Below are positions 2,456 to 32,908 of a stretch of DNA of 64,000 nucleotides, one piece after another. The notes under the pieces are model-generated. The model saw nothing but the letters and a program-made list of their open reading frames with translations. It ran no database searches and was not told the DNA's origin. Source of the DNA: Limnothrix sp. FACHB-406. GTDB taxonomy: Bacteria > Cyanobacteriota > Cyanobacteriia > CACIAM-69d. The position numbers and the translations under genes are program-made. Within the stretch, counting starts at the first letter, position 1; every line of letters starts with the position of its first letter. The DNA lies in contig NZ_JACJSP010000005.1 of the NCBI RefSeq assembly GCF_014698235.1, positions 62,001 to 126,000 of the forward strand, read 5' to 3'.

Positions 2456-3466
2456 CTACAACCAGCGAGCTTGGTTCACGCGCCACTGTGCCAAAAGCTG
2501 CTGCTCCCGTTCCGGCGAAAGACCCGCCTTCAAATCCGCTTGGCGCGATCGATCCCAAGACCACAGATCGCGCACCGTGCCCGCCAGGGGGCGACATTTC
2601 AGACCAGCGGCCGCCGCCCGGCGAGTATCCATGCTGGTGAAGCCGCGCATGGGAGCTTCCTTGCTGGGGATCCAAAGGGGTAGCTCTGTCCAGGGCGCAA
2701 CCCCCGCCTCTAGTAAAAAGTCCTCATGCACCCAATCGATCAGCGCATCGCTGCGGGTGACCCGGGCGCATTCATCCAACACTTTGTCTAGGGTGAGGGA
2801 TTTTTCGGCAGTGCCAACGTTGTAAACCCCCGATCGCTGGGTTTCGCAGGTTTTGATTAGCCAAGCAGCCAAATCACGGGCATCGATCAGTTGTACCCAC
2901 TGTTCCGGTGGCGATGGGGCTAACACGTCACCCCCTTGGGCTAGGCGACGCACCCAGTAAGTGAAGCGATCGGTGGGATCATAGGGCCCCACAATCAAGC
3001 TGGGGCGGGCAATCAACAATCGATCGCCAAAGGTCTCGGCCAACAGTTGCTCGCAACCTGCTTTCAGGGATCCGTAGTCATCGCCGGTTTCGATCGAGGC
3101 TTGGTCATCCAAGAGGGGCGATCTCAGGGGATCGTTTTCCGTGATCCCCGGCAACCCAAAATCTTCGTAAACGGAAATGCTGGATAGGTAGACGTAGTGA
3201 CCCACCGCATTCTGGAGCCGGGCGGCCGTGTAGCGAGCGGCTCGGGGCACGATCGCGCTGGTGTCGATCGCGCTGTCCCAGGTGCGATCGCTCAGGGCGG
3301 CCAGGTCATCCGTGAGCCGATCGCCCACCAACCGCTCCACTGTTGGGAAGGGTTCCGGGTTGCGCCGCCCCCGAGTCAGGATGGTGACCTCATGGCCGCG
3401 AGCCACGGCCGCATCTACCAGATGCCGCCCCAGAAAGGTTGTTCCGCCCAAGATCAAAATTCGCAT
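2456..3466 (-). CDS. NAD-dependent epimerase/dehydratase (extended SDR)
   Basis: A 336-residue Rossmann-fold oxidoreductase of the extended short-chain dehydrogenase class. Seen: the N-terminal nucleotide-binding stretch GGTTFLGR (residues 7-14), the strand YVYLSSISVY supplying the active-site serine region (91-100), and the catalytic Tyr131-x3-Lys135 pair in DDYGSLKAG. The family acts on nucleotide sugars or related carbonyl compounds in the cytosol, but the substrate cannot be read from sequence. In cyanobacteria similar proteins are often annotated as mRNA-binding/CSP41-like or as plain epimerases. Single minus-strand gene between the kinase leader and the kefB-like gene. ATG at 3466 gives the beta-strand MRILILGG immediately, so the start is secure. 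Confidence 0.9.
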   Translation of the reverse strand: MRILILGGTTFLGRHLVDAAVARGHEVTILTRGRRNPEPFPTVERLVGDRLTDDLAALSDRTWDSAIDTSAIVPRAARYTAARLQNAVGHYVYLSSISVYEDFGLPGITENDPLRSPLLDDQASIETGDDYGSLKAGCEQLLAETFGDRLLIARPSLIVGPYDPTDRFTYWVRRLAQGGDVLAPSPPEQWVQLIDARDLAAWLIKTCETQRSGVYNVGTAEKSLTLDKVLDECARVTRSDALIDWVHEDFLLEAGVAPWTELPLWIPSKEAPMRGFTSMDTRRAAAAGLKCRPLAGTVRDLWSWDRSRQADLKAGLSPEREQQLLAQWRVNQARWL

Positions 3467-28878: not shown

Positions 28879-29034
28879 GGGGGCAACCACCGCAACAAAC
28901 GCCAGCAAATCGAAAATAGCGCTCTTTATCCTAGCGTTCGATCGGGGTGGGCGGCGGCGCAACGGTCAAGGGGCGCGTGCAAAATTGAACGATGGGAAGC
29001 GGGGTTCGTTGGCGCTGTCGCCGAAGCAGCTCAA

Positions 29035-29352: not shown

Positions 29353-29766
29353 ATGGCTAGAGATATGTTTCATGATCTGGTCAAGGCTGGATTGGAGGCA
29401 GAGGGATGGGTGATTACGGCCGATCCGTTATATCTATCGTTTGGTCGCGTTAATTTTGAGGTGGATTTAGCGGCGGAGCGGGTTATCGCAGCGGAACGGG
29501 AAAATCGGAAAATCGCAGTCGAGATCAAAAGCTTTTTAAAGTCATCATTCGTAACCGATTTTTATGGTGCATTGGGTCAATTTCTAAGTTATCGCTTGGC
29601 ACTTCAAAGAGTTCAGCCAGATCGAGAGTTATTCTTGGCAGTGCCGCTGGAAACTTACGAACGCTTTTTTTCATTGGAATTTACGCAATCAGCAATCCAA
29701 GAATATTCACTGCGGCTAATTATTTATGATTCTGAGCAGGGAGGTTTAGTGCGATGGATCGATTAA
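29353..29766 (+). CDS. xisH: XisH-family protein
   Basis: A 137-residue protein of the XisH family, first described as a factor controlling excision of the fdxN element in Anabaena and now known from many cyanobacterial loci with no such element. Seen: ARDMFHDLVKAGLEAEGW start, FEVDLAAERVIAAERENRKIAVEIKSF (a PD-(D/E)xK-like D...E-x-K core), DFYGALGQFLSYRLAL. The nuclease-like core suggests a DNase, though activity has not been shown from sequence. ATG 29353 matches the family's usual start; GAGGA abuts it. Overlaps xisI by 13 bases, so the pair is translationally coupled. Confidence 0.93.
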   Translation: MARDMFHDLVKAGLEAEGWVITADPLYLSFGRVNFEVDLAAERVIAAERENRKIAVEIKSFLKSSFVTDFYGALGQFLSYRLALQRVQPDRELFLAVPLETYERFFSLEFTQSAIQEYSLRLIIYDSEQGGLVRWID

Positions 29767-30089
29767 TCATGTATCGCAATGCAATTAAACAATTATTGTC
29801 TGAGTACCACTCTGGGGAGCGTGTGGGAAATGCATACGAGTCTCAGTTGATTTTGGATGAGGTTCGCGATCACTATCTTTGGTTAGATTTAGGTTGGGAG
29901 GGGTCGAAGCGTATTTACCATCCGATTATGCATTTCGATATCAAGGATGGGCGAGTCTGGATTCAGGAAAATATGACGGATCAAGATCCGGCGGAAGATT
30001 TGATCGAGTTGGGGGTTGAGCGATCGGATATTGTCCTGGGGCTACAGCCACCGTTCAAGCGTCCATTTACTAATTATGGAGTGGCATAG
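29754..30089 (+). CDS. xisI: XisI-family protein
   Basis: A 111-residue protein, the usual partner of XisH. Seen: MDRLIMYRNAIKQLLSEY, LILDEVRDHYLWLDLGWEG, YHPIMHFDIKDGRVWIQENMTD, AEDLIELGVERSDIVLGLQPP, which covers the family end to end. Overlaps xisH by 13 bases. Function unresolved; the tight two-gene organisation, small size and mobility resemble toxin-antitoxin or anti-nuclease pairs (inference). Confidence 0.93.
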   Translation: MDRLIMYRNAIKQLLSEYHSGERVGNAYESQLILDEVRDHYLWLDLGWEGSKRIYHPIMHFDIKDGRVWIQENMTDQDPAEDLIELGVERSDIVLGLQPPFKRPFTNYGVA

Positions 30090-30188
30090 TGATGAATTTT
30101 CTGAAACATAAGCGATCAGAAGAGCTGAATGAACTAAATTAAATTCTGATTGTTGAAGCTGTAACCGGAAAAACCAAGGTCTAAAACC

Positions 30189-30635
30189 ATGCCAAAATCA
30201 AGCAAATACCAATGGGTTTATTCTCCCTCGAAGCAAAACAAACCCAAAGTCCCCGAAGCCGAAAAACAAGCCATTACCCAACAGGTGCAAACCCTGATCG
30301 ACACTGACCTAGCCCCACGCTATCTCCACCAAGACCAACACGCCTACTTCCAAATTGAAAGCCTATTCACGAAATGGCATCGCAGCTTTATTTATCTCTG
30401 CTACACCTGCCGCCTCAAGAACTCGGAAGCCGTTGAAGCTGTGATCGCAGAATTCAAAGACAGCGTGATTAGAGAGGCGATCGAAGAGCGATTCACCCGC
30501 CTCGAATACGTCGCCCCCGATCAATTTAATCTCGCCTACTTCCGCCACACTGGTAAATGGTGGACAACCCACGAAAACATCACCCTTGATGCTGCCCTCA
30601 CCACCATTCGCGAATACGAAATCTATCACCCCTAA
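30189..30635 (+). CDS. conserved-looking protein of unknown function
   Basis: A 148-residue soluble protein that I do not recognise. Features: basic N-terminus (MPKSSKYQWVYSPSKQNKPKVP), a helical middle (EKQAITQQVQTLIDTDL), and an aromatic-rich second half (YFQIESLFTKWHRSFIYLCYTC, FNLAYFRHTGKWWTTHENITL). The codon use and HIP1 word (GCGATCG at 30478) are native-looking. It lies 99 bases after xisI and 26 bases before mntA, inside the accessory island; it could belong to either neighbouring module. No signal peptide. Confidence 0.6.
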   Translation: MPKSSKYQWVYSPSKQNKPKVPEAEKQAITQQVQTLIDTDLAPRYLHQDQHAYFQIESLFTKWHRSFIYLCYTCRLKNSEAVEAVIAEFKDSVIREAIEERFTRLEYVAPDQFNLAYFRHTGKWWTTHENITLDAALTTIREYEIYHP

Positions 30636-30661: not shown

Positions 30662-30985
30662 ATGACCCCAGACACCCAAGCCCAACCCCTCACCGCCAAA
30701 ACCGTCCTTGCAACCCTGCGCCAACTTTTCCCAACGCTTCAACAACAATACAACATCAAAAAACTCGGACTCTTTGGTTCCTACAGCCGCAACCAAGCCA
30801 CCGCAGAAAGCGACATTGATCTACTTATCGAACTTGATTCCGACATCACCTTCGGTCTCATCACCTTTTGCCACATCGAAAATACCCTAAGCGAAAAACT
30901 CGGCAAAAAAGTTGATCTCGTGATTTCTGAAAACCTCAAACCCAGCCTGAAGCAAAATATCTTAGACGACGTGATTTATCTATGA
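30662..30985 (+). CDS. mntA: MntA-type minimal nucleotidyltransferase (antitoxin), pair 1
   Basis: A 107-residue nucleotidyltransferase of the DNA polymerase-beta fold. Seen: the signature G-S-x10-D-x-D in LFGSYSRNQATAESDIDLL, followed by IELDSDITFGLI and the C-terminal KVDLVISENLKPSLKQNI. Proteins of this class neutralise the HepT toxin by AMPylating a tyrosine. Its stop overlaps the hepT start as ATGA (30982-30985), the standard arrangement of the pair. A near copy of this gene lies 350 bases downstream. Confidence 0.92.
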   Translation: MTPDTQAQPLTAKTVLATLRQLFPTLQQQYNIKKLGLFGSYSRNQATAESDIDLLIELDSDITFGLITFCHIENTLSEKLGKKVDLVISENLKPSLKQNILDDVIYL

Positions 30986-31329
30986 CTCCCAGAAAAATTA
31001 GAGACTTTCTCAACGATATGATTTCCTCGATCGACCTTACTCAGGAATTTATAGCCGGTCTAACCTTTAAAACATTTGAGGATGATCAGAAGACCATTTT
31101 TGCCGTAAGTCGAGCCATTGAAATCATTGGTGAAGCCTCCAAACAGATTCCAAAAGAGATTTGCGAACAATATCCAGCGATTCCATGGAAAGCGATCGCA
31201 GGCATGAGAGACAAAATGATTCATCACTACTTTGGTGTGAACTTAAAAATACTCTGGAATACTGTTAATAATGATCTACCAGTCCTCAAACCAGAATTAC
31301 TCAAAATCCTCAACAACCTAAAAGACTAG
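30982..31329 (+). CDS. hepT: HepT-family toxin (DUF86, HEPN), pair 1
   Basis: A 115-residue all-helical HEPN-fold protein. Seen: start MTPRKIRDFLNDMISSIDL, helix AVSRAIEIIGEASKQIPKEI, and the catalytic/AMPylated motif R-x4-H-x-Y in MRDKMIHHYFG. The family cleaves RNA unless modified by MntA. Starts on the ATGA overlap with mntA, so expression is coupled with the antitoxin. Confidence 0.92.
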   Translation: MTPRKIRDFLNDMISSIDLTQEFIAGLTFKTFEDDQKTIFAVSRAIEIIGEASKQIPKEICEQYPAIPWKAIAGMRDKMIHHYFGVNLKILWNTVNNDLPVLKPELLKILNNLKD

Positions 31330-31335
31330 AAAATT

Positions 31336-31686
31336 ATGCTCAATGAACCAAAGCCAACAACCCTCACCGCTGAAACCGTCCTTGCAACCCTGCGCCAACA
31401 ACCGAATCTCTTTGAGCAATACAACATCAAAACCTTGGCCCTCTTTGGTTCCACCGCCCGCAACCAAGCCACCGAGCACAGCGACCTCGATTTCTTGGTT
31501 GAATTTGCTGGCGATCCAACCTTGAATTTGTATATGAGTCTGAAATTTTTTCTCGAGGACTTATTTCAGAAAAAAATAGACTTAGTAATCCAAGAAGATA
31601 TTAAACCCCAGATCAAAGAAAGCATTATCCAAAAGGCGATCTATGTCACGCAACCTCAAACTGTATCTAGTGGATATTCTCAATAG
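31336..31686 (+). CDS. mntA: MntA-type nucleotidyltransferase, pair 2, with read-through tail
   Basis: A 116-residue paralogue of the first mntA: the N-terminus LTAETVLATLRQ is nearly the same, and the G-S-x10-D-x-D motif LFGSTARNQATEHSDLDFL is intact. The first copy ends at ...VIYL; this one continues beyond ...AIYV for 12 extra residues (TQPQTVSSGYSQ) and overlaps hepT2 by 44 bases, so its natural stop near 31650 seems lost. Only 6 bases separate it from hepT1. Codon use in the first half (CCTTGCAACCCTGCGCCAAC) matches copy 1 at DNA level, showing a recent local duplication of that part. Confidence 0.9.
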   Translation: MLNEPKPTTLTAETVLATLRQQPNLFEQYNIKTLALFGSTARNQATEHSDLDFLVEFAGDPTLNLYMSLKFFLEDLFQKKIDLVIQEDIKPQIKESIIQKAIYVTQPQTVSSGYSQ

Positions 31687-31990
31687 CATTGACAACATTC
31701 AAAGCGATACTACAAACATAAGCTATGAGGAATTTGTACAAGATCGACGGACAAAAGATGCAGTGATTCTCAACCTGCTCATTATCGGAGAAGCAACAAA
31801 ACAAATTCCGCAAGACATTCGTGATCAACATCCAGAAATTCAATGGAAACAAATTGCAGGCATGAGAGATATGATCGCCCACGCCTATTTCAGTATCAAC
31901 AATAAAATTGTCTGGAATATTATCGAAAATGATCTAGATTTTCTAAAAACCTGTATCAAAAATATTCAAAGTAATGAAGAAGACCGTTGA
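31643..31990 (+). CDS. hepT: HepT-family toxin, pair 2
   Basis: A 115-residue HEPN/DUF86 protein: MSRNLKLYLVDILNSIDNI start, LNLLIIGEATKQIPQDIRDQHP, and R-x4-H-x-Y in MRDMIAHAYFS, followed by KIVWNIIENDLDFLK. It differs clearly from HepT1 in sequence, so the two pairs are not a simple recent duplication as whole units; cross-neutralisation is uncertain. The ATG at 31643 fits the family start despite the 44-base overlap with mntA2. Confidence 0.92.
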   Translation: MSRNLKLYLVDILNSIDNIQSDTTNISYEEFVQDRRTKDAVILNLLIIGEATKQIPQDIRDQHPEIQWKQIAGMRDMIAHAYFSINNKIVWNIIENDLDFLKTCIKNIQSNEEDR

Positions 31991-32015
31991 AATGTTAGAA
32001 ATAAGGATACTTAGC

Positions 32016-32093
32016 ATGGTCAGCCAAGCGAACACACATATTCTAACCGCCGAAATCGTCCTCGAAACCCTACGCCAACAATTAGTGGATTAG
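32016..32093 (+). pseudogene. truncated third mntA (N-terminal 25 codons)
   Basis: ATG at 32016 opens MVSQANTHILTAEIVLETLRQ..., which lines up with LTAKTVLATLRQ and LTAETVLATLRQ of the two complete mntA genes, then ends in LVD-stop before the catalytic motif. It directly follows hepT2, at the place where a third pair would begin, so a third mntA-hepT unit has been cut away or never completed. Sequence past 32093 no longer resembles mntA. Confidence 0.75.
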
Positions 32094-32257
32094 TCGATCG
32101 CAACTACCACCAAAGTGGTAACCCCAGTGACCATGATTCCAACCTCGCGATCGGGGCAGGCGGCAGCGCGGCCGAGACCGAAACGGTAGGATGGGAAGTG
32201 ACGGGGCGATCGACTCAAGCCAATTTGCCCCAGTTCCCCGGCCAGGAGATTTTGCCC

Positions 32258-32908
32258 ATGATCGCCCAACTGGACAAGCACCCCCAAAGCCTCGTTGTCT
32301 ACAGCCCGGAAGCGTATCTTGATCGGGAAGTCAACAGCGATCAGCGTCACGAATACCGAGATGGAGTCATCATCCCCATGACTGGCGGAACCCCCAATCA
32401 CAACGACATTACAGGAAATCTCTATATTGTCCTCAAGCTGGCACTCCGACATCGGAACTATCGTGTTTTCCAGGCTGATCAGCGGCTGTGGATTCCTGAG
32501 CGGCGGATGTATACCTATCCCGATGTGATGGTGTTGCCCAAGCCGATCGAACTGCAAGCGGGTCGCAAAGATACGGTAACGAATCCCTTGCTGATTGCAG
32601 AAGTGTTGTCCAGATCTACTCGCAACTATGATGGGGGCGAAAAATTTGCCGCCTATCGCACCATTCCCAGCTTTCAGGAATATCTCCTAATTGACCAATA
32701 CGAAATGCGCGTTGAGCAATTCATCAAATTAGAAGATTGTGAGTGGCGATTTTTGGAATATCGCAAGCCTGAATCTACCCTTCAGCTCAAAACTGTTGAA
32801 TTAACTTTGCAATTAACTGATCTTTATAGCAATATTGATTTTTCGGAAATGGATTTATCGACTGATGAGCTGGCGATGGATCAGCCGGAAGATCAACAGA
32901 ATATTTGA
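32258..32908 (+). CDS. Uma2/DUF820-family PD-(D/E)xK nuclease-like protein
   Basis: A 216-residue member of the Uma2 family, abundant in cyanobacterial accessory DNA. Seen: YLDREVNSDQRHEYRDGVIIPM (family start), NHNDITGNLYIVLKLALRHR, the nuclease-fold core YPDVMVLP and LLIAEVLSRSTRNYD, then KFAAYRTIPSFQEYLLIDQ. ATG 32258 has AGGAG 9 bases upstream, which is better than earlier in-frame starts. Cellular role unknown; last gene of the accessory island. Confidence 0.88.
   Translation: MIAQLDKHPQSLVVYSPEAYLDREVNSDQRHEYRDGVIIPMTGGTPNHNDITGNLYIVLKLALRHRNYRVFQADQRLWIPERRMYTYPDVMVLPKPIELQAGRKDTVTNPLLIAEVLSRSTRNYDGGEKFAAYRTIPSFQEYLLIDQYEMRVEQFIKLEDCEWRFLEYRKPESTLQLKTVELTLQLTDLYSNIDFSEMDLSTDELAMDQPEDQQNI

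Follow-up and report, generated by a model that had tools for sequence, protein, structure and literature searches.

The head-to-tail array of type VII toxin-antitoxin modules described here has quite probably been reshaped by recombination between the shared 5' heads of its mntA genes, with the body of each antitoxin gene and the toxin gene that follows it left intact as a cassette. The array lies in the window, which is the whole 64,000-nt stretch of DNA that was analysed, taken from contig C5 of a cyanobacterial draft genome of 4.5 Mb (G000). The systems in it are ordinary type VII toxin-antitoxin systems, and the notable part is the route by which they appear to have been reshuffled.

Anatomy of the array and its island

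Two MntA/HepT pairs, complete and intact in their motifs, lie head to tail at 30662-31990 (Table 1), and open reading frames, Pfam matches and a motif check agree with the original prediction on this point. The MNT gene is directly upstream of the HEPN gene in both pairs, with open reading frames overlapping by 4 nt in pair 1 and 44 nt in pair 2. MntA1 and MntA2 match the NTP_transf_2 family of Pfam (PF01909) with 55.5 and 59.2 bits (cut-off 21) and carry an intact GSX10DXD motif from residues 39 and 38, respectively; HepT1 and HepT2 match the HepT-like family (PF01934) with 101 and 104 bits (cut-off 23.5) and carry an intact RX4HXY motif at residues 76 and 75. Scores against the NCBIfam equivalogs MntA_antitoxin (NF047752) and HepT_toxin (NF047751) are 50.9, 51.3, 32.2 and 54.1 bits, all under the curated cut-off of 60, and the pairs belong to the broad MntA/HepT family and not to the exact NCBIfam equivalog. 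The native stop codon of mntA2 has been lost (GTCGCGTAACC in locus L149 versus GTCACGCAACC in the window), which gives MntA2 a C-terminal tail of 12 amino acids translated from the beginning of hepT2 (overlap 31643-31686). The genome as a whole has 19 NTP_transf_2 and 13 HepT-like matches in Pfam, and decayed HepT-like copies are present at C6:190170-190439 (L026; one TGA in frame) and C24:45231-45491 (L031; one TAG and one TAA).

The third mntA, thought to consist of the first 25 codons of the gene, is indeed related to type-2 mntA (LTAEIVLETLRQQ aligns to the native type-2 sequence LTAEIVLQTLREQ), but only about 22 of the 25 codons are homologous, and the final LVD and stop are not. The possibility that LVD and the stop are a scrap of hepT was set aside, as the match to hepT2 is 8 nt long and too short to use. 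The remnant ends at the right edge of an island (approximately 28.96-32.15 kb) that comprises XisH/XisI, DUF3024 and the toxin-antitoxin array and is absent from the congener G002, in whose empty site the 22-nt repeat that borders the island is present as a single copy. A gene for a Uma2-family putative endonuclease (32198-32908) adjoins the island on the right; in G002 this gene stands directly after uvrA.

Table 1. Features of the island and of the MntA/HepT array (positions in the window).
Feature	Position	Strand	Remarks
Left 22-nt imperfect direct repeat	28939-28960		CGATCGGGGTGGGCGGCGGCGC; 19/22 identical to right copy
XisH	29353-29766	+	Pfam (XisH/XisI: PF08814, PF08869); in the island, absent in G002
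XisI	29754-30089	+	Pfam (XisH/XisI: PF08814, PF08869); in the island, absent in G002
hsdS 3'-end remnant	30116-30184	+	EELNELN, stop, ILIVEAVTGKTKV, stop; matches the HsdS tail of G176 (ELKQILIAEAVTGKIKV, stop) that precedes DUF3024
DUF3024 gene	30189-30635	+	PF11225; directly upstream of the array; in G176 between hsdS and the type-2-headed mntA
mntA1	30662-30985	+	PF01909, GSX10DXD; antitoxin, chimeric by profile: type-2 front (codons ~10-21 and 44-47), type-1 body
27-nt identical run	30699-30725 (mntA1) = 31373-31399 (mntA2)	+	Exact match
Identical runs of 16, 12 and 17 nt	30746-30803 (mntA1) versus 31417-31474 (mntA2)	+	Exact matches
hepT1	30982-31329	+	PF01934, RX4HXY = RDKMIHHY; toxin, type-1 partner
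mntA2	31336-31686	+	PF01909, GSX10DXD; type-2 score in every region
hepT2	31643-31990	+	PF01934, RX4HXY = RDMIAHAY; toxin, type-2 partner
mntA3 remnant	32016-32093	+	25 codons and stop; type-2-like 5' end MVSQANTHILTAEIVLETLRQQ; stops at the island edge
Right 22-nt repeat copy	32148-32169		From 32144-32148 onward both congeners are homologous again

Uneven divergence of mntA1 and mntA2

Aligned at the DNA level, the 5' ends of mntA1, mntA2 and the remnant form one 66-nt repeat family with at least 71% identity. The stretch of identical DNA that had been noticed in mntA1 and mntA2 resolves into runs of 27, 16, 12 and 17 nt, all inside the first ~150 nt. Far from being equally diverged along their whole length, the two genes are 80-93% identical in this 5' tract and 27-60% identical downstream of the DXD codons. 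At residues common to MntA1 and MntA2, the same codon is used at 24 of 28 positions in codons 10-48, compared with 34 of 68 elsewhere (11 of 22 in the rest of MntA and 23 of 46 in HepT; Fisher p=0.0012). Because the excess of same codons is confined to codons 10-48, neither chance nor protein conservation alone explains the likeness of the two genes. Within the 27-nt run, the derived bases CTT GCA are common to mntA1 and mntA2 only; this position is occupied by CTC and another codon in the mntA1 orthologue of the sister species G001, in the mntA3 remnant and in five outgroups, and CTT GCA is the signature of a later exchange between neighbours.

The proposed mechanism is that the 5' end of mntA would serve as the shared head of stacked type VII modules, and that recombination between neighbouring heads, whether by crossover or by gene conversion, would remove, add or re-head a unit. 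The 3' part of mntA and the following hepT would travel together as a cassette, so that antitoxin and toxin would stay matched; and because each rear half would stay with its own toxin, no unneutralised toxin would be released by the reshuffling. The heads of mntA1 and mntA2 would have been homogenised again once the sister species had diverged, and the third unit would have been lost down to its head.

A hybrid mntA in the sister species

The same contrast of codon usage between the 5' tract and the rest of the units is found in a second two-unit stack of G000 (C9:96033-97473), with the same codon at 28 of 38 versus 29 of 76 shared residues (p=0.0006). The flanks of this stack are 93% identical in G001, where there is a single mntA. 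The front of that gene favours unit a of the G000 stack at informative sites by 31:3, and the remainder favours unit b (7:28), a switch that is significant by Fisher's test (p=9e-10) and was reached in 0 of 20000 permutations. The switch falls inside a 26-nt tract, TTTGGTTCAATTTTGCGAGACGATTT, that is identical in both copies of the G000 stack, and G001 lacks everything from the body of unit a through hepT-a to the front of unit b, with the join within the tract. The hybrid is now a dead gene with a 105-bp insertion, and hepT-b is deleted. The insertion (L102 ~1648-1756) is MITE-like: it is bounded by terminal inverted repeats (CAGCCTTTACCT...AGGTAAAGGCTG) and appears to have duplicated a TA. 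The difference between the two species may be the loss of a unit in G001 or the gain of one in G000; either way, the junction is in the front of mntA.

This locus bears on an account in which gene conversion only homogenised the fronts, leaving the number of units unaffected, and in which the mntA3 remnant and the single unit of G001 are unrelated deletions. The tracts in the window are patchy, as is typical of conversion, and no relative with unit loss at the window locus was found, but conversion alone is insufficient at C9 because it does not remove an intervening hepT, and in the G001 hybrid the unit-a front runs into the unit-b body inside the tract, with everything between them gone; the account is accordingly given little weight.

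In about 150 HepT loci listed from 26 relatives, units mostly stand singly, complete two-unit stacks occur in G062, G010 and G054, and no three-unit array was recognised; the suggested survey for arrays of one, two and three units thus recovered the first two kinds but not the last. The stack of G062, which belongs to another genus, has a weak excess of same codons (23/34 versus 13/32, p=0.047), and in stacks of non-matching units (G010, G065, G070, G054 and G038), which serve as a negative control, no homogenisation of the fronts was found; in G010, G065, G070 and G054 same codons were not in excess. None of the relatives was found to have one or three units at the locus of the window array itself, and in G001 this locus is broken by an insertion sequence at a contig end. 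The hybrid at C9, the chimeric MntA1 and the derived CTT GCA favour the predicted recombination within the mntA 5' end as a way in which array content changes; growth or shrinkage of the window array itself is inferred.

Two subfamilies joined in MntA1

Class-wide searches yielded native members of three MntA subfamilies; in GTDB, MntA2 as the only query returned no relative and an alignment of eight MntA sequences was too diverse, but an alignment of three succeeded. Log-odds profiles were built on 20 type-1 and 17 type-2 native MntA proteins, such that positive scores indicate type 2 and negative scores type 1. MntA2 is of type 2 over its full length. MntA1 scores +12.8 at codons 10-21 (type 2; the 20 native type-1 proteins score -19.5 to +1.9), -10.4 at codons 22-43 (type 1, yet weaker than all 20 natives at -13.5 to -36.6), +9.7 at codons 44-49 (type 2, with an NQAT patch at 44-47; type-1 natives, -10.5 to -5.1) and -37.7 at codons 50-107 (type 1). 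By this profile MntA1 is a mosaic of a type-2 front on a type-1 body, and a patchy one, because the 12-codon head is short and the segment of codons 22-43 scores only -10.4; this pattern suggests that exchange took place more than once. A front with LTAxTVL is a native trait of type 2 (L149, L119, L195, L207) and was found in none of the 20 native type-1 proteins. The opposite assignment, with MntA2 as the mosaic of a front from MntA1 and a body of the L037-L039 family, was dropped, since L149, L119 and L151 place the LTAxTVL front among the native features of the MntA2 subfamily.

The orthologue of mntA1 in G001 already has a type-2-like front (LTVETILQTLRQ), and the fusion of type 2 to type 1 therefore predates the species split. 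The orthologue is a frameshifted pseudogene, and hepT1 at that locus is cut by an insertion sequence. The change that causes the frameshift (L100 ~3420-3460) creates an inverted repeat of 12 bp without mismatch, GGTGGCTTGGTT...AACCAAGCCACC, which fits quasipalindrome-templated mutation; xisH is deleted at that locus.

The same comparisons bear on the possibility that unrelated modules, acquired independently, landed side by side, with a common N-terminus that merely reflects the usual conservation of helix 1 in the family. In its favour, the two units differ in the subfamily of their bodies and toxins, and G010, G065, G070 and G002 have stacks of unrelated units that lack 5' similarity, but family conservation would not account for a front that is missing in 20 of 20 native type-1 proteins, nor for excess identity at synonymous positions and derived bases common to both copies, and independent acquisition is considered improbable. 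Slightly less credit is given to selection on DNA or RNA (for translation start, autoregulation or a binding site) as the force that kept the fronts alike in place of recombination. Signals of that kind do occur at gene starts, and so does the similarity; however, the tracts run to codon ~48, past the initiation region, the leaders upstream of mntA1 and mntA2 have no evident similarity, other mntA genes of G000 do without the LTAxTVL-type front, and the G001 hybrid is a physical junction.

Toxins remain with their antitoxin bodies

HepT1 shares 58% identity with the toxin that follows the type-1 MntA of L119, and HepT2 shares 62% with the toxin that follows the type-2 MntA of L149, versus 38-40% crosswise. 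HepT1 and HepT2 are 43% identical over 114 amino acids and 71% identical in DNA over 156 nt; they differ strongly, as originally stated, but are nevertheless diverged homologues. Since the family of each HepT agrees with that of the MntA body encoded with it, toxin partners have not been swapped, contrary to the original prediction. The exchanged piece, as judged from these identities, is the antitoxin front, with junctions ahead of the MntA body or near its beginning, and the rear half of MntA moves with HepT as one cassette. In each window pair, MntA presumably AMPylates the tyrosine of RX4HXY, silencing the HepT RNase. In the Legionella complex, the MNT surfaces that touch HEPN are alpha2 and the alpha2-beta3 loop (PMC11586414); presumed to follow the GSX10DXD loop, these surfaces would be mostly outside the exchanged front, downstream of it.

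Duplication of a single module in tandem, after which body and toxin diverged fast under selection for new toxin targets while the front changed slowly, would agree with fronts more alike than bodies and with the 43% homology of the toxins, but is very improbable, as each body and HepT is closer to modules of other genera (58% and 62%) than to its neighbour, the bodies belong to separate subfamilies, and synonymous sites of the front would not stay identical.

A second chimera and the type I restriction context

Recombination between mntA heads is also indicated by an MntA of another genus (G176; L207/L254) that is of type 2 to residue 71 and of type 3 from residue 72, where it scores -43.1 (native type 3, -25 to -46; native type 2, +22 to +47). 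By these scores it is a second chimera and an independent case, in which the type-2 front precedes body and toxin of a third kind. The HepT of this unit belongs to type 3 (72% identical to the nearest), so that toxin type follows MntA body type with no swap of partners. The recombination junctions are not uniform, being located at codons ~21, ~46 and ~71.

The gene order in G176 is hsdS - DUF3024 - mntA - hepT - hsdR (Pfam Methylase_S; HSDR_N, SWI2_SNF2). The front of MntA1 matches that of G176 (TQAQPLTAKTVL versus TKPQPLTAETVL), and the hsdS tail, DUF3024 and type-2 head are syntenic between the window and G176. The window retains a remnant of ~23 codons like the hsdS tail, of which the segment ILIVEAVTGKTKV and stop occupies 30143-30184, and no hsdR. 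The window array is probably the relic of a type I restriction operon like that of G176, because it sits behind DUF3024 and the hsdS-tail remnant as in G176. Related arrangements are found in L119, where a confirmed hsdS is followed by a type-2 mntA, a type-1 mntA and a type-1 hepT and the hsdR-like start has no Pfam match, and in L149, where a truncated type-1 mntA comes after a complete type-2 pair. The type-2 head of mntA1 would probably derive from a type-2 mntA that once stood behind hsdS-DUF3024, joined to a type-1 body with its own HepT. In the likeliest history, DUF3024 was first followed by a type-2 unit, and recombination at the front of this unit then installed a type-1 body and toxin.

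Some type-2 mntA genes (L196, L204 and the window at 32016-32040) begin with M(V/I)SQxNE or similar. Such starts nearly equal the first codons of the adjoining hsdR in G176 and of the hsdR-like start in L119, and a few hsdR codons may likewise have been captured as an mntA head.

On a broader and doubtful reading, cyanobacterial MntA/HepT arrays might serve as shuffling devices: the type-2 head, often in the hsdS-DUF3024-hsdR slot of type I restriction operons, might be a recombination seat for cassettes of body and toxin (types 1, 2 and 3), by which the RNase guard of the restriction system would be renewed while the toxin is never uncoupled from its antitoxin.

Relation to known systems

MntA of Shewanella oneidensis is known to silence the RNase activity of HepT by AMPylation of a tyrosine (PMC7641770). 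This system (SO_3165/SO_3166) resembles those of the window in its MNT and HEPN pair, the PF01909 and PF01934 domains and the GSX10DXD and RX4HXY motifs (PMC7641770), but is one stand-alone pair, whereas the window has two stacked pairs, with a chimeric MntA, under the NCBIfam equivalog cut-offs. The HEPN-MNT systems of Aphanizomenon flos-aquae (PDB 7AE2) and Legionella pneumophila have the same fold class and motifs as the window and AMPylation of HEPN by MNT, and in the available text of PMC11586414 neither an array nor a chimera like that of the window was found described. With phmmer (E<=0.001), HepT1 and HepT2 had no match in the PDB, and MntA2 matched only 1wot_A (1.6e-10). MNT-HEPN modules are abundant and mobile, form multi-gene clusters in crenarchaea, and HEPN genes cluster with restriction-modification operons (PMC2701414, PMC3710099). 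The crenarchaeal and restriction-modification-adjacent clusters of Anantharaman et al. 2013 (PMC3710099) have multiple MNT and HEPN genes per locus, as the window does, but a recombination route or a constant-head arrangement was not found in the accessible portion of that paper. No account of recombination in MntA fronts was found in the literature searched, in which subscription papers were only partly covered.

In the polymorphic toxin arrays of CDI, Rhs and Maf systems, a constant front is accompanied by orphan C-terminal toxin/immunity modules, and recombination at the shared 5' end changes the toxin cassette. The array of the window would work in a similar way, but is not homologous to these arrays: its constant part is the front of the antitoxin enzyme, and the toxin, an intracellular RNase, is a separate protein.

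Accounts of toxin-antitoxin evolution usually invoke swapped partners or the transfer of whole modules. In the array described here the antitoxin gene itself would be split, with recombination in its shared front and a rear half that remains paired with its toxin. Recombination at the front would be a safe route to change toxins in place, would explain the stray mntA starts in tandem MntA/HepT stacks, would predict where the specificity of MntA for HepT resides, and would link MntA/HepT modules to the interior of type I restriction operons.
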